Assembly (NCBI GenBank): GCA_030583925.1
Contig: CP129482.1
Location: forward strand, 3,224,001-3,288,000
Direction: 5' to 3'
DNA length: 64,000 nucleotides
DNA from: Anaerolineales bacterium
Lineage (GTDB): Bacteria; Chloroflexota; Anaerolineae; Anaerolineales; Villigracilaceae
Part shown: positions 3,745 to 52,160 of the stretch, in pieces
Position numbering within the stretch: position 1 is the stretch's first letter
How the letters are laid out: each line of letters begins with the position of its first letter
Made by a program: the position numbers and the translations under genes
The notes under the pieces: model-generated
Seen by the model: only the letters and a program-made list of their open reading frames with translations
What the model was told of the DNA's origin: nothing
Databases searched by the model: none

Positions 3745-3831
3745 CCCGTCGGCTCGGACGCGGGAGGCAATCCGCTTACAAACAACAGAAGCGTAGGAAC
3801 AAAGGGGAGTTTATATCCGTCTGTATCCGTG

Positions 3832-3860: not shown

Positions 3861-4778
3861 ATGCACAGAATTAAATTTTTCACCAGTCTTTTTTTTGCGG
3901 CGCTTCTGGCGCTTTCAGGTTGTAACCTGCCTTCGAACGCGCCTGCCACCGATGCGCCGGATGTGATCCAGACGAACGCGGCTCTCACCGTGGAGGCGCT
4001 GTTGAATCAACCGACTCCGTTCAACACGCCGACGCTTCCAGCCGCGCCGCCGACGAATACGGTTGCGCCTCCTCCGACCATTGCGCCTGCCACTTCCACT
4101 TTGTCTGCCTCTGCGACGCCAAATTGCGATCTGGCGCAATTCATCAAAGATGTGACGATACCGGACGGGTCGAGCGTTGACCCCGGCGATACGTTCACGA
4201 AGACCTGGCGTTTGAAGAATATCGGCGCTTGCACGTGGACCGGTTACGCGCTGGTCTTCGATAGCGGCGACGCGATGAGCGGCGCTTCGCCGATCTCGAT
4301 TGGAACCGTTAACCCGGGACAGGAAGTGGATGTTTCAGTGAACCTTACTGCTCCGTCTTCGAACGGCACGTATCGCGGGTACTGGCGTATTCGTAACGCG
4401 AGCGGCGTTCTGATTCCGGTTCAGGGAGGCTCGCAACAGGGTAAGTCGTTCTACGTGGAGGTTAAGGTTGGCGCGGTGTCTGGCGGTCCTTTTGCTGTGA
4501 CCAGCGTGTCCATGTCGGTTTCTGGAAGTTGTGGAAATTTCACCATCAAGGCAAATGTGACTGCAAATGGCGCGGGAAACGTAACGTACAAATGGATACG
4601 AAGTGATGGAGCGATTGACGGTGCAGCGCATCCGCCGATTGTGTTTACATCGGCCGGCGCCCAGCAGGTCAGCACAACCTGGTCGGTCTCAGCGCCGGCT
4701 TCATCTTTCTGGATGGATATCTATATTGACGATCCAAACCATCAGCAGTTTGGTCGGGCAAACTTCAGTTGTCCCTAG
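3861..4778 (+). CDS. lipoprotein with NBR1-like Ig domain (array member 1)
   Basis: Secreted, lipid-anchored protein of 305 residues with no known biochemical role. The signal peptide ends in lipobox ALSGC with Cys21. A short conserved motif follows (NAALTVEALL, 39-48), then a Thr/Pro/Ala-rich linker (50-87). The Ig-like domain of the NBR1/N_BRCA1_IG type spans about 90-203, with the hallmark TKTWRLKNIGACTW and YRGYWRIRNASG. The last ~95 residues (210-305) form another beta-rich domain ending in a Cys, which resembles the C-terminus of the next gene. The ATG has GAGG seven bases upstream. It is the first of five tandem paralogues, and a hairpin terminator follows the stop. The role is inferred to be surface adhesion or binding only. 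Confidence 0.85.
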   Translation: MHRIKFFTSLFFAALLALSGCNLPSNAPATDAPDVIQTNAALTVEALLNQPTPFNTPTLPAAPPTNTVAPPPTIAPATSTLSASATPNCDLAQFIKDVTIPDGSSVDPGDTFTKTWRLKNIGACTWTGYALVFDSGDAMSGASPISIGTVNPGQEVDVSVNLTAPSSNGTYRGYWRIRNASGVLIPVQGGSQQGKSFYVEVKVGAVSGGPFAVTSVSMSVSGSCGNFTIKANVTANGAGNVTYKWIRSDGAIDGAAHPPIVFTSAGAQQVSTTWSVSAPASSFWMDIYIDDPNHQQFGRANFSCP

Positions 4779-4794
4779 ATGAATGAAAGGTGAG

Positions 4795-4826
4795 AGCGCC
4801 CGGCACATTCTGTCGGGCGCTTTTTA
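4795..4826 (+). terminator. intrinsic terminator after lipoprotein 1
   Basis: An AGCGCCCG arm pairs with CGGGCGCT across a ~11-base loop and is followed by a run of five T. It lies 17 bases after the stop codon, so array member 1 is a separate transcription unit. Confidence 0.85.
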
Positions 4827-4833
4827 CAACAGG

Positions 4834-4840
4834 TATAATT
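4834..4840 (+). promoter_or_regulatory. putative -10 box (TATAAT) of lipoprotein 2
   Basis: A consensus TATAAT just downstream of the terminator, about 40 bases before the ATG at 4880. No good -35 is visible. The gene has its own Shine-Dalgarno (AAGGA) seven bases before the ATG. Confidence 0.5.
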
Positions 4841-4879
4841 CTTCCGTACGATGGAACAAAAAAAAGAAAGGATGTTTGA

Positions 4880-5815
4880 ATGTACGTGTTACGTTCATAT
4901 AAGATTTCGGTTGTGTTGCTCTGCCTTGCCTTGAGCATAGCGGCATGCGCTCCATCAACTGCACAGAGCGATGCGATCATCGCCACCTCGGTCGCGCTGA
5001 CGGTTGAAGCGGGCAAGCAAGCGTTAGCCACAAACACACCGGAACCTCCCCTGCCGACCCTCCCAGCTACATTAACGCCGGCAGTGGCAAATACACCCAC
5101 CGAGGCGCCAACCCTTAGCTCGGCGCCCTCCGACCCGGATTGTATTCACGCGGTTTTTGTCAGTGAATATCCACCGGATCAAGCCGTCTTCAAACCTGGC
5201 GCTGACTTTTCCAAAACATGGACGATCCGCAATGTGGGTACGTGCACATGGGATTACTCGTATAAGTTGATCTTCTGGAGCGGCGATGCGATGGGCGGCG
5301 CAACGTATTACAACTTGGCAGAGATCGTCCCGCCCGGTGACGATATCCCGATCACAGTTCAATTGAAAGCGCCGGAAGCGGAAGGGTTTTATACCGGTTA
5401 CTGGCGTCTGCAAACGCCATGGAACAAAAATTTCGGCGTCGGACAATATAGCCAGGCGTTTTATGCCACGATCCAGGTGGATAAAAGACCCCAGCAAGAG
5501 TCAACCGTGCTGAGTGTGACCTACAACATTGTCCGTGAACCGGCCACGGGCTGTCCCGCCAATGTGAAATACACGGTCTACGCGACCATTACAACGAACG
5601 GACCCTACGAGTTTAGTTATTACTGGGAGCAAAAGGATGGAAACGAAAGTGGGGTAAAGGGTTTAGATTTTGACGCTGCAGGTTCGCAAACTGTTTCTCG
5701 CGAATGGGTGGTAGGACGGGGAGACAGCCCCAACGACAGGTGGATGCAAATCATCGTCGTTGAGCCGGAACTGATCGAATTCGACAAAGCGGTCTTCTCC
5801 AACCCTTGTCCCTGA
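4880..5815 (+). CDS. lipoprotein with NBR1-like Ig domain (array member 2)
   Basis: Lipid-anchored surface protein of 311 residues. Signal peptide with lipobox SIAAC (Cys23), the short motif ATSVALTVEAG (35-45), a Pro/Thr linker (50-85), then an NBR1-like Ig domain (about 88-203) with SKTWTIRNVGTCTW and YTGYWRLQTPW. The C-terminal domain (about 206-311) aligns by eye with that of array member 1: a Cys near its start, a YxWxxxDG-like strand (SYYWEQKDG), a GSQTVSREW strand and a terminal Cys-Pro. The function is unknown. A terminator follows the stop. Confidence 0.85.
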   Translation: MYVLRSYKISVVLLCLALSIAACAPSTAQSDAIIATSVALTVEAGKQALATNTPEPPLPTLPATLTPAVANTPTEAPTLSSAPSDPDCIHAVFVSEYPPDQAVFKPGADFSKTWTIRNVGTCTWDYSYKLIFWSGDAMGGATYYNLAEIVPPGDDIPITVQLKAPEAEGFYTGYWRLQTPWNKNFGVGQYSQAFYATIQVDKRPQQESTVLSVTYNIVREPATGCPANVKYTVYATITTNGPYEFSYYWEQKDGNESGVKGLDFDAAGSQTVSREWVVGRGDSPNDRWMQIIVVEPELIEFDKAVFSNPCP

Positions 5816-5819
5816 TCAA

Positions 5820-5858
5820 CCGAAGCCGAGGCGGAAAATCCGCTTCGGCTTCTTTTTT
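5820..5858 (+). terminator. intrinsic terminator after lipoprotein 2
   Basis: The GAAGCCGA arm pairs with TTCGGCTTC, with an inner GCGGA/TCCGC pairing, followed by six T. It lies four bases after the stop codon. Confidence 0.9.
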
Positions 5859-5916
5859 GGGAACTCGCCAGCCTCCTTTGACGTTTAAAACCATGCCGAA
5901 TATCATGGAGGCATTT

Positions 5917-7200
5917 ATGAAACCTATTAATTTCAAGAAAGGCTTTTTGCTCGCTATCGCTTTGGCGACCATCCTAGCCTGCGGATCATTTTCAACGAGT
6001 TCTCCGCAACCAGCGGAGACTTTGAACGCGCTGTACACCTCTGCCGCGGAGACGCTGGGCGCCATGTCCACACAGGCGGCGAACACAGTCACGCCGGGGC
6101 AAACGGTTACGGTTACGCTTTCGATTCCTACCTCAAGCGTAACGCCTTTCAGCACGTTTACCAACGTGCCGCCTATTCAAATCACAAAATGCGACGCGGC
6201 GGCGTTTGTCACCGATGTAACCTTCCCAGATGGCGCGGTGGTCGGGCGCGGCAGCGCCTTCACAAAAATCTGGCGGTTCAAGAACGTCGGCACCTGCACG
6301 TGGACCAAATCCTATGCCATCGTGTACGTTAGCGGAGAAAAATTCGGGGCGTCGAATTCCGTTCCCATGCCGGTGCAGGTTGCCCCCGGTCAGACCGTGG
6401 ATATCCCACTCAACCTCACCGCGCCGGGCTCAGATGGACGCTATCGAGGCAATTGGAAATTACAGAACGCGTCGGGAGTCCTGTTTGGGGTTGGTACAAA
6501 TAGCGAATCCAACTTCTACGTGGATGTTACCGTCAGCGGATACACGCTGGCTGTGTACGATTTCTTCGCCAATTATTGCGATGCCGTTTGGAGAAGCGAA
6601 ACAAAGAACCTCGGTTGCCCCGGCACAGAAGGCGACAACAGAGGCTTCGTCCGCGCGCTGAACTCGCCAAAAATGGAGGACGGCGTCTCACGCGGCGACG
6701 CGCTGCTTACCTATCCCAATAAATCTGGAACGGGTTTTATCACCGGTAAATTCCCTAATTTCAATGTGAAGAACGGCGATCGTTTCCAGGCTTTGATCGG
6801 ATGTCAGCGCGGCGCCACCGATTGTAATGTGATCTTCCGCCTGCAATATCAGATCGGGAACGGCGATGTAAAAACGCTCGCCCAATGGCAGGAGGTCTAC
6901 GAAGGGTTGTACTATCCCGTCAGCGTTGACCTGAGCGCGCTGCGCGGTGAAAAGGTCAAATTTATCTTGACCGTCCTCGCGAACGGCACATCGCATGACG
7001 ACTTCGCAATGTGGGTATACCCACGCATCACGCGGCAAAGTTCCGACCCCGCCACTTCGACGTTCACCCCGACTCCTTCGCAGACGCTAACTGTCACGCC
7101 CACTTCGACCGTCACATCCACCCCATCGGAGACTCCCACTGTCACCGTAACGCCGACGGCTACCGAAACGCCCACCGAAACGCCTACTGCAACGCCGTAA
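5917..7200 (+). CDS. lipoprotein with NBR1-like Ig domain plus unnamed module (array member 3)
   Basis: 427-residue lipoprotein. The ATG at 5917 is chosen because GGAG lies six bases upstream and the signal peptide starts there (MKPINFKKGFLLAIA, lipobox ILAC, Cys22). A longer in-frame reading from 5806 would begin inside the preceding terminator. Conserved motif near 38-50, NBR1-like Ig domain at about 92-205 (TKIWRFKNVGTCTW). A further module of about 160 residues (208-370) follows, with CPGTEGDNRGFVR, GRFQ-like core and the DLSALRGEKVKFIL strand. The same module occurs twice in the 946-residue protein at 49203-52043. The chain ends in about 50 residues of Thr/Pro/Glu/Val repeats with nothing after them, which is odd for a linker. 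Confidence 0.83.
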   Translation: MKPINFKKGFLLAIALATILACGSFSTSSPQPAETLNALYTSAAETLGAMSTQAANTVTPGQTVTVTLSIPTSSVTPFSTFTNVPPIQITKCDAAAFVTDVTFPDGAVVGRGSAFTKIWRFKNVGTCTWTKSYAIVYVSGEKFGASNSVPMPVQVAPGQTVDIPLNLTAPGSDGRYRGNWKLQNASGVLFGVGTNSESNFYVDVTVSGYTLAVYDFFANYCDAVWRSETKNLGCPGTEGDNRGFVRALNSPKMEDGVSRGDALLTYPNKSGTGFITGKFPNFNVKNGDRFQALIGCQRGATDCNVIFRLQYQIGNGDVKTLAQWQEVYEGLYYPVSVDLSALRGEKVKFILTVLANGTSHDDFAMWVYPRITRQSSDPATSTFTPTPSQTLTVTPTSTVTSTPSETPTVTVTPTATETPTETPTATP

Positions 7201-7219
7201 CCCATAAAAACAATTGCGA

Positions 7220-7225
7220 TATAAT
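7220..7225 (+). promoter_or_regulatory. putative -10 box (TATAAT) of lipoprotein 4
   Basis: TATAAT preceded by TTGCGA, about 77 bases before the ATG at 7302. It sits directly upstream of a strong hairpin (7228-7267), so the expected transcript would begin within or at that hairpin. Confidence 0.45.
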
Positions 7226-7227
7226 GA

Positions 7228-7267
7228 TGCTGGAAGCGGCAACGATAAAACGATGTCGCTTCCAGCA
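7228..7267 (+). promoter_or_regulatory. leader hairpin upstream of lipoprotein 4
   Basis: Perfect 11-bp inverted repeat TGCTGGAAGCG / CGCTTCCAGCA with an 18-base loop containing two ACGAT words. No T run follows directly. It lies between the -10 box and the Shine-Dalgarno (GGAGG, 7290-7294). It could stabilise the mRNA, bind a regulator or act as a weak terminator for the preceding gene. Confidence 0.5.
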
Positions 7268-7301
7268 CACTCGTTTGACGGTTTTTCTCGGAGGTATTCA
7301 C

Positions 7302-8015
7302 ATGCGTGTTCGAAACACTTTTGGGCGTGCCGCGCCCATCCTGCTCGGTATCAGTTTGATCCTTGCAGGCTGTAATTTTGGCGCAACGCCCGTTCCTACA
7401 CAAGATCTCAATGCGATCAACACTTCGATCGTAGGCACTACGGTCGCGCAACTCTCCAGCCAGATGACCGGCACCGCGCTGGCTCTTCCTACATCAACGC
7501 CTGAACCGACCAATACGATTGCATCCATCGCCACAATCGCGCTAACCGCCAACAGCGCCTCCCCCACAGGCGGGATTCCCACAATTTCGTTTAATGCCAC
7601 GCCGCTTCCGGGTTTTACTCCTCTCGCCTCTCCTACCCAGGCCGGCGCAACCGCCGCCCTCGGAGACGAATGCAGCAATAGCGTTTTCGAAGGGGATATC
7701 ACCATTCCAGATGGATCTGTCTTGAAACCCGGACAAGATTTTACAAAGATATGGGCAATTCGGAATACTGGTTCATGCGCATGGGATGAGGGCTTTGCGC
7801 TTGTGTTTATTGGTGGAGACACGGCGATAGACCCTTACAATTATGAATTTAAGAAGACCAAAGATATAGTTTTAAGCGGAGAAGGTCTTAACATTGCCAT
7901 TAAATTGACCGCACCGCTCGCGCCCGGCGATTATCAAGGACACTGGCGCATGCGCAACGACAAGGGCTATTATTTCGGCACGATCCTCTCGGTGTACTTC
8001 ACCGTTAAAAAATAA
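7302..8015 (+). CDS. lipoprotein with NBR1-like Ig domain (array member 4)
   Basis: 237-residue lipoprotein. The ATG at 7302 has GGAGG seven bases upstream and begins a clear signal peptide with lipobox LAGC (Cys24). The motif INTSIVGTTVAQL (39-51) is the counterpart of the post-lipobox motif in the other members. A long Ser/Thr/Pro linker (50-120) leads to a single NBR1-like Ig domain at about 123-237 (TKIWAIRNTGSCAW, YQGHWRMRNDKG), which ends the protein. The next paralogue starts 22 bases later with no terminator between, so members 4 and 5 are probably co-transcribed. Confidence 0.84.
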   Translation: MRVRNTFGRAAPILLGISLILAGCNFGATPVPTQDLNAINTSIVGTTVAQLSSQMTGTALALPTSTPEPTNTIASIATIALTANSASPTGGIPTISFNATPLPGFTPLASPTQAGATAALGDECSNSVFEGDITIPDGSVLKPGQDFTKIWAIRNTGSCAWDEGFALVFIGGDTAIDPYNYEFKKTKDIVLSGEGLNIAIKLTAPLAPGDYQGHWRMRNDKGYYFGTILSVYFTVKK

Positions 8016-8037
8016 CTCTGCAATGAAAAGAGATGCT

Positions 8038-8652
8038 ATGAAACGCAAAATCATCTTCACCTCCTTTCTGGTAATCCTCCTACTCGCGGCGTGTGGCGGA
8101 CAAGCCACCCCCGCCGAACCAACGCCAGATGTAGCGGCAGTGCGCACATCCGCGGCAAGCACCGTCGTCTCTCAATTTACGTTGACGGCGGCAGTTTTCA
8201 CACCGACCGTACAAGCCGCCACCGAAACGCCCGAAGCGGAAGAGACGGTCGCGGCGACACAAGAGCCGTCGTCAGAATCCACAGCCGCATCTGGCACAGA
8301 AGAGGGACTCTGCGATCTGCTTTCCTATGATCCAGCTACTATTGATGTGAACATCCCCGATAACACCCTGATGACCCCCGGACAGGAATTTATAAAAACC
8401 TGGCGGGTGAAGAACGCCGGCACATGCCCTTGGGGCGCCGGCTACGCGCTGACCTTTACCGGCACCGGCGACAAGATGGCCGGTCAATTCATCGCCTTCA
8501 CCGAGGTCATTCAGCCGGGACAAGAAGTGGAAGTTTCGATTCAGTTCAAAGCGCCGAGCGCTGTCGGGCAATATGTCAGCACGTGGACAATGACAAATCC
8601 CAAAAATGTTACCTTCCCTGAAGCCATCTACGTAAAGATCATCGTGCAATAA
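8038..8652 (+). CDS. lipoprotein with NBR1-like Ig domain (array member 5)
   Basis: 204-residue lipoprotein. An in-frame ATG lies at 8023, but the one at 8038 has the AAAAGAGA purine stretch at a normal distance and gives a shorter, cleaner signal peptide (lipobox LLAAC, Cys19). The post-lipobox motif VRTSAASTVVSQ is at 35-46. A linker rich in Ala, Thr and Glu precedes the NBR1-like Ig domain at about 95-204 (IKTWRVKNAGTCPW). It is the most divergent member of the array: the YRGYW strand reads YVSTWTMTNP. queG starts three bases after the stop. Confidence 0.83.
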   Translation: MKRKIIFTSFLVILLLAACGGQATPAEPTPDVAAVRTSAASTVVSQFTLTAAVFTPTVQAATETPEAEETVAATQEPSSESTAASGTEEGLCDLLSYDPATIDVNIPDNTLMTPGQEFIKTWRVKNAGTCPWGAGYALTFTGTGDKMAGQFIAFTEVIQPGQEVEVSIQFKAPSAVGQYVSTWTMTNPKNVTFPEAIYVKIIVQ

Positions 8653-41936: not shown

Positions 41937-42102
41937 TCAAGTGCGTGTGAATTTTATCTCAAAGAAGAGTTTTGTCAACCAAAGGCAAGAAACTTCGCTT
42001 TCAAAATCTCGTATGAAATCTTGGAACAATATCTCACTCGCGCCGTCTTGGATATGGCATTGCCTATTTGTAGTGCAATTCCATTTCAGTACTGTTAGGG
42101 GA

Positions 42103-46135: not shown

Positions 46136-46543
46136 TTATTCCTTGGGCTTCACCAACCGCCCGCCGATGATCGCCGCGAGGATGGCGAGCACTAAAATCA
46201 CCGCTCCAGAACAGACTCCTGCCGCCATACCCGCCGCGCCCAACCCTTTTATTGCAATTTCTTCGTTCGGTACAACTTTTTGAGAGCCGTCTTCAAACGT
46301 GCAGGTCCATTCTTCCTGATGACCGGTCGGTCCGCTGGGACTTGTCGTCACCGGTCCGTGATTGTATTCATGCTGGTCAATCGAAACTGCGCCAGGGCAG
46401 ACCGCCCAAGCGGTTAGTTTGTCGAACACCGGCGGGATGCCCACCAGCATCGCGCCGCCGACAGGCACGATGAAAAACAGCGACGAGCCGCCAATCAACA
46501 AAACAAGCAGCGCTCCGATACACGATCCGTGCCAGCGTTTCAT
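46136..46543 (-). CDS. hypothetical membrane protein, two transmembrane segments
   Basis: 135 residues. Hydrophobic segments near 10-37 (CIGALLVLLIGGSSLFFIVPVGG) and 102-127 bracket an extracytoplasmic loop with two Cys (AVCPGAVS, EEWTCTFED) that could form a disulfide. AAGGAG precedes the ATG by six bases. No family recognised. It is last in a run of minus-strand genes, separated from the sigma factor gene by a terminator. Confidence 0.65.
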   Translation of the reverse strand: MKRWHGSCIGALLVLLIGGSSLFFIVPVGGAMLVGIPPVFDKLTAWAVCPGAVSIDQHEYNHGPVTTSPSGPTGHQEEWTCTFEDGSQKVVPNEEIAIKGLGAAGMAAGVCSGAVILVLAILAAIIGGRLVKPKE

Positions 46544-46586
46544 GGATTCTCCTTGAGCGAGGGATGTGAAGCGCTCGAATTATAGC

Positions 46587-46625
46587 AACAAAAAACGCGT
46601 GAAGCGAAAATGCTGCACGCGTTTT
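46587..46625 (-). terminator. terminator after the ECF sigma factor gene
   Basis: On the minus strand AAAACGCGTG pairs with CACGCGTTTT across a 14-base loop, then TTGTTGC. Directly downstream of the sigma gene stop. Confidence 0.85.
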
Positions 46626-46640
46626 TGCGGGAATTTCAAC

Positions 46641-47270
46641 TTACGCATACACTGAGGCGGGCAACTCAACCTGATATGCAGACGGCAGCAGGTTCTCGAA
46701 TCGTTTCAATGCCGAGCGTAATTGCATCCGGGCTCGCGCCAAACGACTTTTCACCGTCCCGACCGGCACGCGCGCCGCGTGAGCGGCTTCCTCGTAGGAC
46801 ATGCCCTCGATATCAACCAGAATCACCATCAACCGATAATCGGGAATCAACGCGCGGATGCAATCTTGCATCGCCCGTTGTAGTTCTCGTGATTCCGCCA
46901 ACTCCTGCGGACCGGCGGAGAGGTCGGTCATCCACACTGGAGATTCGATCTCCTCCCCTTCCTGGTTGAACTGCTCGAGCGGCGTCGAAATGTGACGCTT
47001 TGTGCGGCGCAACTCATCGTAACTCGCGTTGACCGCCACGCGCGCCAGCCAACTCTTGAATGATCCACCGCGAAACGAGCGGATATTTTGAAACGCTTGA
47101 ATGAAGGCGTTCTGCACGGCGTCTTCCGCGCCGCATTCATCCTGAACGATACGCAGAGAAATCCGATACAGCAAGTCTTGATACTTCAACACCAACAAGT
47201 TAAACGCGTCGGGGTCGCCGCGCTTGGCTGTTTCGATAAGCATGGTTTCGGTATCGGCGATGGGTTTCAT
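46641..47270 (-). CDS. ECF-type RNA polymerase sigma factor
   Basis: 209-residue extracytoplasmic-function sigma factor. Region 2 is visible at about 20-90 (FNLLVLKYQDLLYRI, CGAEDAVQNAFIQAFQNI, FKSWLARVAVNASYDELRR), and region 4 at about 135-190 (DYRLMVILVDIEGMSYEEAAHAARVPVGTVKSRLARAR). A linker of about 30 residues joins them. No anti-sigma gene is adjacent, and the C-terminal tail (SAYQVELPASVYA) shows no regulatory domain. Its target genes cannot be inferred. Confidence 0.93.
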   Translation of the reverse strand: MKPIADTETMLIETAKRGDPDAFNLLVLKYQDLLYRISLRIVQDECGAEDAVQNAFIQAFQNIRSFRGGSFKSWLARVAVNASYDELRRTKRHISTPLEQFNQEGEEIESPVWMTDLSAGPQELAESRELQRAMQDCIRALIPDYRLMVILVDIEGMSYEEAAHAARVPVGTVKSRLARARMQLRSALKRFENLLPSAYQVELPASVYA

Positions 47271-47338
47271 ACATCCATGATAAGCCCCCGTTGTTACAAG
47301 CCTGTCGCAAAGATGTCACAGTTTTGTAACATCCAACG

Positions 47339-47390
47339 AATCCGCTAATCTTCGCTAATTTTTCAATCCATTCGCGGAGATCAGCGGATT
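47339..47390. repeat. imperfect palindrome (AATCCGCTAATCTTCGC...GCGGAGATCAGCGGATT)
   Basis: Arms of 17 bases match in 15 positions across an 18-base centre. It lies just after the stop of the sensor kinase gene on the minus strand and may double as its terminator. Similar words occur as dispersed repeats in other bacteria (general knowledge). Confidence 0.6.
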
Positions 47391-47395
47391 GATAT

Positions 47396-48367
47396 TCATC
47401 GCCTCGGTAAACGCAGAGTGATCACCGTTCCGCGCGGCTCATTCTGGCTGGAGCGGACGCCGACGCCGCCTCCGTGTAAGATGGCTATACGATTGACGAG
47501 GGCGAGCCCCAGCCCACTCCCCTCCGTGCTGCGTGCATTCGATCCCCGATACAACTCTTCGAAGATCTTCGATAGATCCTCGCTTGGGATTCCCACACCC
47601 GAATCCGCCACCTCGATGACGACAGACCGGCCATCTTCGAGCGCGCGCACCTCCACCGAGTCATTCGCGGACGTGAACTTGAGCGCATTTTCGACGAGGT
47701 TATACACCGCCAGCACAAGCAGATCGCGGTCGCCCGTGATCATGGGGAACGGCGAGGGAATCTTCGGAATCAACAAGCTGATGTTGCGCCCTTCGTAGGC
47801 AGGGATGGCACGCGCGGCTTCGACAACGTCGTCGAGCAACTCGGGCACGCTGACCGCGTAGCGTTCGATGGGACGCTCATCGAGGTCGGCTAATTTTCGC
47901 AGATCGGTAAGCAAGCGCGTCAAGCGTTCCACTGCTTTGCCGGCGTTTTGTCCCGCTTGCCAGCGTTCGTCCGCCGCCTGCGCTTCTTGCAGATTGACCA
48001 ACGCGGCGCGCAATCCGGTCAACGGATTCTTGATCTCGTGATCTAGTCGCCTCAAAAATTGACGACGCTTCTGCTCCGTTGATTGGACATAATCGGCGTA
48101 TAAAGTCTGCGCTTCCGAAACGTGACGCCGGTCCCAGCGGCGGGCAAGGATGACGATCGCGGTGATCACAAAACCAAAAAGGAAGGCAACGATTCCGACG
48201 TTGCGTATGGATATGCCAAGCACAAACCCCGCGATGCCCAAGTCAGCCGTGGAAATGACGGGCGATACGGTGGGCATGAAAATTTGCGCCGCGATGAACA
48301 GCAACAATCCCACCAACACAGGCAGAAGGAATGGGACTAGTTTCTTCCATGCAAACTTTTTGAGCAT
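47396..48367 (-). CDS. sensor histidine kinase
   Basis: 323-residue membrane kinase. Two or three hydrophobic segments in the first 76 residues, no sizeable external domain between them, so it probably senses within or near the membrane. HisKA has phospho-acceptor His110 (RLDHEIKNPLTGL). The ATPase domain has the N box (VYNLVENALKF), G1 (VADSGVGI), F box (FEELYRG) and G2 (GSGLGLALV). It follows its response regulator after six bases on the same strand. Confidence 0.93.
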   Translation of the reverse strand: MLKKFAWKKLVPFLLPVLVGLLLFIAAQIFMPTVSPVISTADLGIAGFVLGISIRNVGIVAFLFGFVITAIVILARRWDRRHVSEAQTLYADYVQSTEQKRRQFLRRLDHEIKNPLTGLRAALVNLQEAQAADERWQAGQNAGKAVERLTRLLTDLRKLADLDERPIERYAVSVPELLDDVVEAARAIPAYEGRNISLLIPKIPSPFPMITGDRDLLVLAVYNLVENALKFTSANDSVEVRALEDGRSVVIEVADSGVGIPSEDLSKIFEELYRGSNARSTEGSGLGLALVNRIAILHGGGVGVRSSQNEPRGTVITLRLPRR

Positions 48368-48373
48368 GAGCTT

Positions 48374-49093
48374 TTACCCCTCTCCGTGAACGGACGCGAT
48401 AAAACGATAGCCCTCGCTAGGAATCGTTTCGATGAAGCGCGGCTCGGCGGGATCGTCGTCAAGCGCGCGGCGGAGTTCAGCCATGCGCGTGTCTACGGTG
48501 CGCGTACCGGCGGGATATTCCCAGCCCCATACGGCATTGAGCAATCGTTCGCGCGAGATCGCTTCGTCGGGATGGGTCATCAAATATTCCAATACGGAGA
48601 ATGCCTTGGGAGTTAGTTCAAGCGTTTCGCCGGAAAGAGTCGCACGGCGAGCGCGGCGGTCTAGGGAAAGGTCGTCCGCGGTGAGAAGCCATGCCATCGA
48701 AAGCGAGCGCTCGCCAGGACGCGCCCTCCGCAGCACCGCGCGGATACGCGCCAGCAATTCATGCGGATCGAACGGCTTGTTGAGATAATCGTCCGCGCCT
48801 TCTTCGAGGGCGAGCGCGCGCTCGGAGGCTTCGCCGACTTGTGTGAGCAGGATGGTGGGAGTCCAGATGTTCAACTTGCGCAAGCGGCGCAAGGTTTCTC
48901 GTCCGTCCATGCGCGGCATCAGCACATCGAGGATGATCAATTCGGGGTGATGCGCTTGCGCTTTGTCGAGCGCGGTCATGCCATCGGAAACGACCAGCAC
49001 GTGAAAGCCGGCGCGCTCTAAGAATGGCGCGAGGCTATCCGCAATCGTGGGATCGTCGTCGGCAAGGAGGATGGTGGAGCGATCGAGGGACAT
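48374..49093 (-). CDS. OmpR/PhoB-type response regulator
   Basis: 239-residue transcription factor. Receiver domain with Asp11-Asp13, phospho-acceptor Asp56 (LIILDVLMPRMDG) and the Lys of LNKPF. A winged-helix DNA-binding domain follows (about 140-235: LTPKAFSVLEYLMTHPDEAISRERLL, RTVDTRMAELRRAL). The pair with the kinase gene downstream is typical. The GAGGG before its ATG is part of the REP-like repeat at 49103, so a mobile palindrome appears to supply part of its leader. Confidence 0.95.
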   Translation of the reverse strand: MSLDRSTILLADDDPTIADSLAPFLERAGFHVLVVSDGMTALDKAQAHHPELIILDVLMPRMDGRETLRRLRKLNIWTPTILLTQVGEASERALALEEGADDYLNKPFDPHELLARIRAVLRRARPGERSLSMAWLLTADDLSLDRRARRATLSGETLELTPKAFSVLEYLMTHPDEAISRERLLNAVWGWEYPAGTRTVDTRMAELRRALDDDPAEPRFIETIPSEGYRFIASVHGEG

Positions 49094-49102
49094 GGAGATT
49101 TT

Positions 49103-49140
49103 CCCTCACCCCTACCCCCTCTCCCGCTGGGAGAGAGGGA
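49103..49140. repeat. REP-like palindrome (CCCTCACCC...CCCTCTCCC...GGGAGAGAGGGA)
   Basis: Same family, opposite orientation, as the insertion in queG (8892-8927). CCCTCTCCC pairs with GGGAGAGAGGG. It occupies the leader of the response regulator gene. Confidence 0.75.
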
Positions 49141-49149
49141 ACGGGCTAG

Positions 49150-49178
49150 AGAAAAGCCCGGTCGGGCGGACCGGGCTT
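49150..49178 (-). terminator. terminator after the 946-residue Ig protein gene
   Basis: On the minus strand AAGCCCGGTC pairs with GACCGGGCTT around CGCCC, then TTCTC. Confidence 0.85.
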
Positions 49179-49202
49179 CCCGTCGGAAAGAGGCGAAGCG
49201 TC

Positions 49203-52043
49203 CTATGGAGTGATCGCAAAGGAGTTGATGATCTGGTTGAAGACCACAGACTCGGCGACCTTGTCAAAGATCGGCGGAGGCGTGGGCAGATTGCCGGGAT
49301 TCACCGATTTGAGGACGAAGGCAAGGTTGATGCAGGCATTGTTTTGCATCGTCGAATAACTGAGCCAATCGTAGAAACTGCCCGCCGCGCCTTCAGAGCC
49401 TTCCTCTTTTAGGAATTGAACGCTATTGATGGTGACGTTGCTCGAAGAGGTCGCGGCGCCGCTCGCGTACTTGCAGGTCGCAAGCCCTTCGGTCACTGTG
49501 ATCGCCAAGTATTTTTCACGCAGGTTTGTGCCGGCGGCAAATGGGAAATCGGCGCGCCCGGAATTATCGGACATGCCAGCCGCCGCATCGGGCGGGATCT
49601 TGACGCCGAACTTGTATTTGGAATTTTGGAACAAATTCCAGCCGCTGAGCGGATCGGGCGTGGCGGTCAGCGTTGGAGTGGATGGCGACATGGAAGTGGA
49701 TGTCGGCGTTGGGCTTAAGCAAGGCAACGGAGGCGTTGGGACCGGCAGGTTTTCGTTACGCGAGTTGTTGGATTCGTTGCTCTCGGCGACCGCCCCGCCC
49801 GGATCAACAACAACCGAGACCGGGTTAGTATAGCCGCTGAAGAAAACGATTTTCGTTTCGCCTACTGCCAACCCGCTGACGGTTTGCTGTGCAGTTCCAA
49901 CTTGCACGGCAAAACTACCGGCAGAAGCCTGTCCGCTATTGGTGACGCGCACGCGTACGCCCAACGTTTCGCCGGGGTTGAAACACGACTCGTTGGGGAA
50001 ACTGATACTCAAAGAGTTGATCGTGAGATCGGGCAGACTGCCTCCGCCGCCTCCGGTGGCGCGATAAATGTGCGGACCCACCCAAAGGGCGCGGTCGCCG
50101 GTGGCTGGACCAACCGCAAGCGCGGTCAGAACGAATTTCACATCCTTGCCAGCCAGCGGCGAGAGGTCAATATCTACATTGAACGATTGTCCTTCGTAGC
50201 GCTCGAGGAACGGACCCCAAAACGTCGCGACCGGGTCGGAGCCGATTTGGTAATCGAGACGAAAAGCCACATAGCAGAGATTCGAGCCATACTCGCATCC
50301 GATGGTCGAACGGAAGCGGTCTCCGGCTTGCACGCGGAACGGCGGGTAGGAACCTTGGATGTATCCGCTCGAAACATTTTGCGGGAAGGTGAGGACGGTC
50401 TGGCGCGGGTCGGTTGATCCATTTTCAAGTTTGGCGCTGTTCAATTTCAGCGCGAAGCCGCGCGCATCGCCGTCCGTGCCGGGGCAAGGCAATTGACCCG
50501 CGCCGCTGGTCCATGTGGCAGAGCAAGCGCCGGTGGCAAAATCGAGAACAGAACCGGGCTGAGGAGTGACGGTCGGGCCGGTGGTGGCGGTAGGTGTGGG
50601 CGTTTTGGTCGGTCCGCTTGGGGTGAGAGTAGGACCAGACACTTTGATATCCACCCACCACGGTTTGTTCGCTTGCGAGCCAATGCCGAACAGCGCGCCA
50701 CTGGCATTCTTGAACATCCAATAGCCGCGATACGAGCCCGCCGCGGCAGGCGCGGTCATCGGCACGGTGATGTCAATCGTCTGACCAACCGCCACATCGC
50801 GCGGGAATGTGGCAGAGGCGGGCGCGCTCATTTGTTCGCCGCTGAAGAACGCGAGTTGGTACGAAGTTGTCCACGTGCACGAGCCGACGTTCTTCAAACG
50901 CCATGTTTTGGTAAACGTCGCGCCGGGCGCGAACGTCGAGCCGTCCGGCACGGTGACATCCGCGATGAATTGAACGCGGTCGCACGCGGATGGCGGAACA
51001 GTCGGAGTGATGGGACCCGGCGTTTGGGTCGGGGTGGAGGTTGGCGGAGTGCCTGTCGCCGTAGGAGGAGGAGCGCTTCCTTTCCGGACGACGACCGGGT
51101 TACCCCATAGGGCGCGGTCTCCAACGGGTGAGCCATACGCGGACACGTACAAGATGAATCGGACTTCCTGCCCCGCGAGCGGAGAGAGATCAATGTTGGC
51201 GTCGTACGTCAAGCCTTCGTAACGTTCGCGGAAGGTCCAGAATGTGCGGATGGAGTTGCCGACTTCGTAATCGAGGCGATAAGCGGTGTAACAACTTGTC
51301 GCGCCGAACTCGCAACCTACGCGGGTCTGGAACTTATCGCCGCTTTCGACGCGGAACGGCGGGAAACGTCCCTGAATGAAACCGTTGGTGATGTTTTGAG
51401 GAACGAAGAGGAAGCCGGGTTTGGCAAGTTCAACGCCGCTTTCAAATTTTGGTTTGTCGAGTTTAAGCGCAAAACCTTTCGCATCGCCGTTCGGGCCCGG
51501 GAACGAAAGTCCGCCCGCGCCGCTCGACCAGGTGGCTTCACCGGCTTTGGCGATAAAGTCGAAAGCGACGTTCGTGGTGGACGTTCCAACAACGTTGATC
51601 TCCACCCACCAGGCTTTGTTCGCGTTTACGCCGATGCCGAAGAGCGCGCCTTGCGCGTTCTTGAATTTCCAATAGCCGATGTAGTGACCCGCCGCGCTGG
51701 GCGCGGTCATGTTGATCGTGATGTCAATGATTTGACCGGGAGCGATGTTGTTGGCGAAATTGCTAGAGGCTACCGCGCCCATCTTCTCGCCGGTGTCGAA
51801 CACGAGCGAGTAGGAGGTTGTCCAGGTGCAGGTGCCTACGTTTCGCAATCTCCAATCTTTGGTGAACGGCGCACCAGGTTCAAAACGAGTGCCGTCTGGC
51901 ACAGTAACATCGGCGATGAACTGCGCCTTATCGGTGCATGTTTGCGCGGCGGAAACGCTCGTTGGCGCTGTCGCGGCGGGCGTCAGCGACAAGATCAGCG
52001 CGACCAGCATCATGAAAGATAGTACGTTAAATCGGGGCTTCAT
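49203..52043 (-). CDS. large secreted protein with NBR1-like Ig, unnamed module and CARDB domains
   Basis: 946-residue secreted protein with an N-terminal signal peptide but no lipobox (the first Cys after it, in AAQTC, starts the Ig domain). Order of parts, approximate residues: NBR1-like Ig 1 (36-150), unnamed module A1 (159-318), Thr/Pro linker, Ig 2 (353-470), Pro/Thr linker, module A2 (501-658), CARDB-like adhesion domain (669-765; LPDLTINSLSISFPN), linker, and a C-terminal domain (799-946) with two or three Cys. The modules match residues 208-370 of lipoprotein 3 at 5917. AGGAG precedes the ATG. The domain set implies carbohydrate or cell-surface binding, which is inference. Confidence 0.88.
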   Translation of the reverse strand: MKPRFNVLSFMMLVALILSLTPAATAPTSVSAAQTCTDKAQFIADVTVPDGTRFEPGAPFTKDWRLRNVGTCTWTTSYSLVFDTGEKMGAVASSNFANNIAPGQIIDITINMTAPSAAGHYIGYWKFKNAQGALFGIGVNANKAWWVEINVVGTSTTNVAFDFIAKAGEATWSSGAGGLSFPGPNGDAKGFALKLDKPKFESGVELAKPGFLFVPQNITNGFIQGRFPPFRVESGDKFQTRVGCEFGATSCYTAYRLDYEVGNSIRTFWTFRERYEGLTYDANIDLSPLAGQEVRFILYVSAYGSPVGDRALWGNPVVVRKGSAPPPTATGTPPTSTPTQTPGPITPTVPPSACDRVQFIADVTVPDGSTFAPGATFTKTWRLKNVGSCTWTTSYQLAFFSGEQMSAPASATFPRDVAVGQTIDITVPMTAPAAAGSYRGYWMFKNASGALFGIGSQANKPWWVDIKVSGPTLTPSGPTKTPTPTATTGPTVTPQPGSVLDFATGACSATWTSGAGQLPCPGTDGDARGFALKLNSAKLENGSTDPRQTVLTFPQNVSSGYIQGSYPPFRVQAGDRFRSTIGCEYGSNLCYVAFRLDYQIGSDPVATFWGPFLERYEGQSFNVDIDLSPLAGKDVKFVLTALAVGPATGDRALWVGPHIYRATGGGGGSLPDLTINSLSISFPNESCFNPGETLGVRVRVTNSGQASAGSFAVQVGTAQQTVSGLAVGETKIVFFSGYTNPVSVVVDPGGAVAESNESNNSRNENLPVPTPPLPCLSPTPTSTSMSPSTPTLTATPDPLSGWNLFQNSKYKFGVKIPPDAAAGMSDNSGRADFPFAAGTNLREKYLAITVTEGLATCKYASGAATSSSNVTINSVQFLKEEGSEGAAGSFYDWLSYSTMQNNACINLAFVLKSVNPGNLPTPPPIFDKVAESVVFNQIINSFAITP

Positions 52044-52160
52044 GGGTCTTCTCCTCTTTTATGCCAATTACCGTTATTACGACGATACAAGGACTGGAAA
52101 GTTCCTTAATGACTATACGCCTCTAGTATATCTTTTCTTAAACAAATGTTCAATATCCCT

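Follow-up and report, generated by a model that had tools for sequence, protein, structure and literature searches.

A conserved array of five FW-domain envelope lipoproteins with alternating promoter types in an Anaerolineales genome

Positions 3861-8652 of the stretch of Anaerolineales DNA analyzed here (64,000 nucleotides in all, hereafter the window) hold five adjacent lipoprotein genes with one FW (PF16158) domain in each. FW is the NBR1-type immunoglobulin-like (Ig-like) domain, whose best-known bearer is an autophagy receptor found in animals, plants, and fungi. The domain is thus a known one; the envelope lipoproteins built on it here form a conserved set with differing regulation. New here are the regulatory context of this set, of which we found no description in the literature searched, the exchange of C-terminal modules at position 1, and the pattern of kept and varying residues in the presumed binding pocket. 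In the explanation that we consider moderately probable, the five genes encode ligand-binding lipoproteins of the cell envelope and form an old array in which two members are under the control of an extracytoplasmic function (ECF) sigma factor. The homology, gene order, orthology, promoter conservation, and change of modules that we describe were demonstrated computationally.

All five genes lie on the forward strand, with corrected start codons at 3861, 4880, 5917, 7302, and 8038. By sequence pattern, each product begins with a signal peptide and lipobox cysteine, followed by a Thr/Pro-rich linker. Gene 1 (3861..4778) joins its FW domain (about 4128-4475; PF16158 E value 1.2e-23) to an Ig-like module assigned by profile, module A (4476-4775), and gene 2 (4880..5815) carries FW at 5144-5485 (7.7e-22) and module A at 5495-5812. 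In gene 3 (5917..7200) the FW domain (about 6193-6540; 1.6e-22) is followed by a jelly-roll module, module B (6532-7044), and a Thr/Pro tail. Genes 4 (7302..8015) and 5 (8038..8652), which are separated by 22 nucleotides, both end in their FW domain, at 7674-8012 after a long linker in gene 4 (2.4e-24) and at 8326-8649 in gene 5 (1.5e-25). A preliminary description of the locus had already reported five adjacent genes with a lipobox, a Thr/Pro linker, and one NBR1-type domain, as well as C-terminal parts that differ among them, and we found both as described: module A in genes 1 and 2, module B in gene 3, and a terminal FW domain in genes 4 and 5. The (A/T)SxAxTVxA motif that it had noted near the N-terminus is likewise real and typical of the family. 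A TSxAxTVxA-type segment lies about 12-25 residues past the lipidated cysteine in the array proteins, and such a motif occurs within 45 amino acids of the cysteine in 180 of 225 FW lipoproteins versus 2 of 25 other lipobox frames.

The NBR1-like character of the domains was confirmed by hidden Markov model search, in which all five match PF16158 (E values from 7.7e-22 to 1.5e-25) with 78-90 bits against a Pfam gathering cut-off of 28. When a profile of the five array domains was compared with solved structures, it matched only ILRUN (6vhi), human NBR1 (4ole), and the CtNbr1-Ams1 complex (7vqo). The AlphaFold2 model of gene 1 has a mean predicted local distance difference test (pLDDT) score of 85.7 and a predicted template modeling score of 0.57, and its FW half is an Ig-like beta-sandwich that superimposes on the ILRUN FW domain (6vhi) with a template modeling (TM) score of 0.91 by target length and a root-mean-square deviation of 1.7. 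The first three conserved tryptophans of FW are present in all five array domains, and the fourth departs, being Tyr in genes 1, 2, 3, and 5 and Ser in gene 4. This fourth tryptophan is present in 25 of 43 other FW domains of relatives, and its replacement by other aromatic residues has been noted for FW domains (PMC3357945). We therefore assign the array domains to FW by profile score and fold, with the fourth-tryptophan feature marked as departing.

FW domains are widespread among the relatives of the source organism, whose genome, one 3.97 Mb contig, has 14 of them in 12 genes. They were found in all 40 relatives' genomes searched (same genus, family, or order), in 1 to 21 copies; across the phylum they occur in 94 of 301 genomes, and in 0 of 14 model genomes. 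The preliminary description had called the bacterial role of the domain undescribed, which holds insofar as no role has been established, but bacterial FW domains, Chloroflexi included, were reported in 2012 (Marchbank et al., PMC3357945). Our literature search for FW or N_BRCA1_IG in Anaerolineae yielded nothing beyond that paper. Pfam scans found no PB1 or ZZ domain alongside FW. Among the unusual FW proteins encountered are one of 2015 amino acids, consisting mainly of Thr/Pro repeats with a C-terminal FW domain and module B (L011:1083-7130), and one from the source genome in which FW is fused to a CAP (cysteine-rich secretory protein) domain (L014:4317-5291).

The array is an old, stable orthologous set and not a recent or phase-variable expansion. 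In relatives it lies upstream of queG with identical gene order and similar gene sizes, and this arrangement reaches two other genera; in the closest relatives the array is also preceded by the same ATP-binding cassette (ABC) transporter ATPase, and more distant relatives have one or two FW genes adjoining queG. On a tree of 90 FW domains, grouping by position and origin takes 12 label changes, where the minimum possible is 7 and shuffled labels give a mean of 60.5, and positions 2, 3, and 5 each make up one side of a branch. Because the domains group by position and not by genome, the duplications predate the split of the sampled genera. Monophyly of the five relative to the genome's other FW genes was neither supported nor rejected by the approximately unbiased test (p 0.12 and 0.24). 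A recently duplicated surface family, variable by phase or niche, had been suggested by the preliminary description, and the adjoining position of five paralogues, the variable FW copy number among genomes, and the variation of the position-1 C-terminal module between relatives could be taken in its favor. We nevertheless regard such a family as highly improbable, because FW domains are grouped by position across genera, promoters are specific to position, and a search of the array for switching elements found no tandem array and no long near-identical direct or inverted repeat. What does stand is the broader proposal of paralogous surface lipoproteins that diversified after duplication and lie in separate transcription units.

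Promoter type alternates along the array, with ECF-type promoters at genes 1 and 3 and TATAAT-type promoters at genes 2 and 4. In upstream alignments, genes 1 and 3 are preceded by GGAAC, 16-17 diverged bases, and CGTC or CGTT, and genes 2 and 4 by TATAAT. The ECF-sigma-type promoter of gene 1 (GGAAC-N17-CGTC, 3796..3821, forward strand) lies 65 nt before the ATG and keeps its hexamers in relatives while the spacer diverges; that of gene 3 (GGAAC-N17-CGTT, 5860..5885, forward strand) lies 57 nt before the ATG. The -10 boxes of gene 2 (GGTATAAT, 4834..4839) and gene 4 (7220..7225) are on the same strand, and gene 5 is without a promoter motif of its own. Over 15 loci, the ECF motif precedes 10/13, 0/13, 14/15, 0/17, and 0/15 genes at positions 1 to 5, respectively, and TATAAT precedes 1, 13, 0, 15, and 0 of the same genes. 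Pooled, the ECF motif is found at 24/28 genes of positions 1 and 3 versus 0/45 of positions 2, 4, and 5. Intrinsic terminators follow gene 1 (4794..4827, forward strand; -21.8 kcal/mol, z score -6.1) and gene 2 (5822..5858, forward strand; a 14-pair stem and T run, -26.6 kcal/mol, z score -6.1), and both hairpins are conserved in relatives. Of the separate terminators and -10 boxes that had been proposed for these two genes, both terminators and the TATAAT box of gene 2 thus hold up, and the promoter of gene 1 proves to be of the ECF type. Just past the TATAAT box of gene 4, its leader contains a strong hairpin (7225-7270; z score -4.7) that is not clearly conserved in relatives.

The sites of genes 1 and 3 are conserved and match the published ECF promoter signature of AAC at -35 and CGT at -10 (PMC3426412), with a spacing of about 16 nt. 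When all loci are considered, the motif lies within 150 nt upstream of 122 of 404 FW genes versus 3 of 480 control open reading frames. In a reduced set without repeated loci, it precedes 113 of 328 FW genes, compared with 4 of 328 for the backward pattern and 1 of 328 for the wrong strand, and it tracks module B, being found at 91 of 105 genes that combine FW with this module versus 22 of 223 other FW genes. The cultured relative Anaerolinea thermolimosa (L119) has a gene of this combined kind together with the ECF site. Two points weigh against an ECF assignment. The orthologues are not independent, so that the p-values of the reduced-set comparisons overstate significance and are indicative only. 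The bare pattern, moreover, occurs 42 times genome-wide versus 36 for its backward control (within the window alone, 7 occurrences versus 3.6 expected), and because this is no real excess, single sites mean little without conservation. The case for ECF promoters rests on the position and conservation of the sites, and we abandoned the pattern as a genome-wide predictor. A sigma-70-like match at 5878-5906 was also dropped as the promoter of gene 3, since it leaves no space for a Shine-Dalgarno sequence and the conserved ECF site fits. A further GGAAC-N16-CGTC site is found in the window at 42023-42047 on the forward strand; a possible start follows it after about 135 nt.

A second FW gene in the window (49203..52043, reverse strand) encodes a protein of 946 amino acids with two FW domains (PF16158 E value 3.4e-52), two copies of module B, and a CARDB domain (6.2e-12). 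Its own ECF-sigma-type promoter, GGAAC-N16-CGTC, is located at 52081..52105 on the reverse strand, 62 nt before the ATG. Downstream on that strand, Pfam identifies an OmpR-type response regulator (48374-49093), a histidine kinase (47396-48367), and an ECF sigma factor (46641-47270). This cassette, which spans 46136-52105 of the window, keeps the same order in 8/8 relatives fetched, another genus included, and in several genomes it also includes a gene for a small membrane protein; the ECF-type promoter is present upstream of the two-FW gene in most of the eight. The position of a two-FW gene at the head of so conserved a cassette, behind such a promoter, raises the alternative that FW proteins do the sensing for the envelope system (ECF and two-component) and are not its targets, relaying ligand occupancy to the kinase or sigma factor. 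This seems to us improbable, given that the five-gene array has no regulator gene and that, by its sequence, all that the kinase exposes beyond the membrane is a short loop.

The sigma factor of the cassette is a paralogue, 51% identical, of an ECF factor encoded at genome positions 2284945-2285562 (within L213, genome 2282800-2287300), which carries a GGAAC/CGT site inside its own 3' coding end. In the relatives seen, 42-69 nt separate that site from the start codon of the next gene, a putative anti-sigma factor. At the site, 27 of 28 relatives use CGT for the arginine, and elsewhere in those genes CGT accounts for 66 of 472 arginine codons, which suggests constraint on the DNA itself in addition to the peptide ELLPxxYR. 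Other ECF sites at promoter distance in the source genome precede genes for two META-domain lipoproteins, one SIMPL lipoprotein, and one DUF4349 protein. A tandem pair of META-domain lipoprotein genes (L214:1887-2862; genome 1516800-1523000) has a GGAAC-N16-CGTC site 46-51 nt before the start of each gene.

The C-terminal modules add a second layer of variation. Modules A of genes 1 and 2 are homologous Ig-like domains (36% identity); recent gene conversion between them was considered and dropped, as the copies at positions 1 and 2 fall into separate clades. Module B occurs in gene 3, and genes 4 and 5 have no module beyond FW. Among its 35 members, module B has no credible Pfam match, and no sequence relative was found in the PDB. 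Its AlphaFold2 model (mean pLDDT 93.7) is matched by Foldseek to the beta-sandwiches of carbohydrate-binding module (CBM) families CBM22, CBM4, and CBM61, of MAM domains, and of cleaved adhesins. The fold is alike, with TM scores mostly of 0.4-0.65 by query length and 8-19% identity to CBM22, CBM4, CBM61, and MAM, and identification as a known CBM was dropped because the match is one of fold and not of sequence in the PDB or Pfam. The position-1 FW domains remain close kin, while the module that follows them varies: the window's clade and another genus carry A, seven relatives carry B, and one has a third type. This implies at least three changes on the queG tree. The orthologue at L064:5783-6919 has this third kind of module after FW, without a Pfam match.

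Whether the FW heads bind ligands can be considered in light of the eukaryotic domain. In CtNbr1, residues F651, D654, D658, W672, and W763 of the FW domain form a pocket that binds Ams1 by its N-terminal Gly-Gly, and the authors of that work expect the binding mode to be general (PMC9233695). In the array, the acidic end of the pocket is kept, with Asp or Glu at the D654 equivalent and Asp at the D658 equivalent; the exception is one truncated position-1 sequence at D654. The W672 equivalent is Trp. The walls vary by position: the F651 equivalent is Phe at positions 1, 3, and 4 and mostly Leu at 2, and is unsure at 5; the W763 equivalent is Tyr or Phe at positions 1, 2, and 5, mostly Tyr at 3, and mostly Ser at 4. 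This pattern fits a retained amine-binding end with position-specific walls. Several points count against such a reading. In four of the window domains Tyr replaces the fourth tryptophan, which forms one wall of the pocket in CtNbr1, and in one domain Ser does; at the F651 wall, position 2 has Leu and position 5 is unsure. Peptide binding is therefore uncertain, and in addition the conserved Asp residues could be structural. To judge from these residues, a ligand-binding role of some kind for the array FW heads is fairly probable, and binding of N-terminal peptides in particular is a tentative proposal that we hold to be somewhat doubtful.

The same residues bear on another explanation, that FW lipoproteins are bound to the wall and have a passive, structural or adhesive role, in which FW is a stable Ig-like spacer and either the attached modules (CBM-like B, CARDB, CAP) do the binding or nothing does. 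The carbohydrate-binding jelly-roll fold of module B, the pairing of FW with CARDB and CAP in the same genome, and the loss of the fourth tryptophan wall would all suit a spacer. Positions 4 and 5, however, have no other named domain, and yet no complete array seen lacks them, and the acidic pocket residues are kept as well; we consider a passive role rather unlikely.

In the ligand-binding explanation that we favor, the lipid anchor and Thr/Pro stalk would hold the FW head outside the membrane, either by itself (genes 4 and 5) or joined to another binding module, Ig-like A (genes 1 and 2) or jelly-roll B (gene 3). The five would be stable paralogues with separate roles and not a changing repertoire. 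Given their ECF-type promoters, genes 1 and 3 and the 946-amino-acid FW protein would probably be raised together under envelope stress, and genes 2 and 4-5, with TATAAT-type promoters, are probably constitutive. We infer both this stress induction and ligand binding, and the type of ligand is our guess: because the acidic end is kept at all five positions, the groove that accepts a free N-terminus in CtNbr1 may serve the FW head for binding proteins or peptides outside the cytoplasm. Aromatic walls differing by position would then give differing ligands, and module B may add a glycan-type contact. A more speculative extension, to which we assign little likelihood, is that FW in Anaerolineales is the standard ligand-binding head of an ECF and two-component envelope response, serving in its products and, via the cassette of FW protein, response regulator, kinase, and sigma factor, also as its sensor. 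NBR1 would in that case have taken over a bacterial domain already recognizing exposed protein N-termini.

The role of bacterial FW domains has been open since 2012, and the eukaryotic work points to binding of a free protein N-terminus as a test. That two of the five genes are apparently under an envelope-stress-type regulator is a first clue to bacterial FW function. The conserved array, the promoter split, and the linkage to an ECF factor and kinase lead to two testable claims. One is a response to an ECF sigma factor by genes 1 and 3 but not by genes 2, 4, and 5; the other is that the ligands of FW heads differ where their pocket walls do. The array order and promoter pattern could also aid annotation of a large, mostly uncultured group.

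Our findings can be placed beside three known systems. The array domains resemble the FW domains of NBR1 and ILRUN in their PF16158 match, Ig-like fold, first three tryptophans, and acidic residues equivalent to D654 and D658. Unlike NBR1 and ILRUN, the array proteins are, by sequence, secreted lipoproteins and not cytosolic, they were not found to contain PB1, ZZ, or UBA, their fourth tryptophan is replaced by Tyr or Ser, and their five FW domains have in common a Cys pair that is absent from the aligned NBR1 and ILRUN stretches. With ECF regulons that include an anti-sigma factor, the system described here shares the AAC/CGT signature, the 16-17 nt spacer, the adjacent sigma and putative anti-sigma genes, and the site before the anti-sigma gene. 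It differs in that its targets include FW lipoproteins, for which our literature search found no description, and in that the anti-sigma site sits within the 3' end of the sigma gene. The bacterial FW proteins of Marchbank et al. 2012 (PMC3357945) likewise have diverse partner domains, and Chloroflexi are listed among their sources; yet where that study described XRE-FW and other architectures, the paralogues found here are membrane-anchored and stand in a conserved array that has ECF-type promoters.

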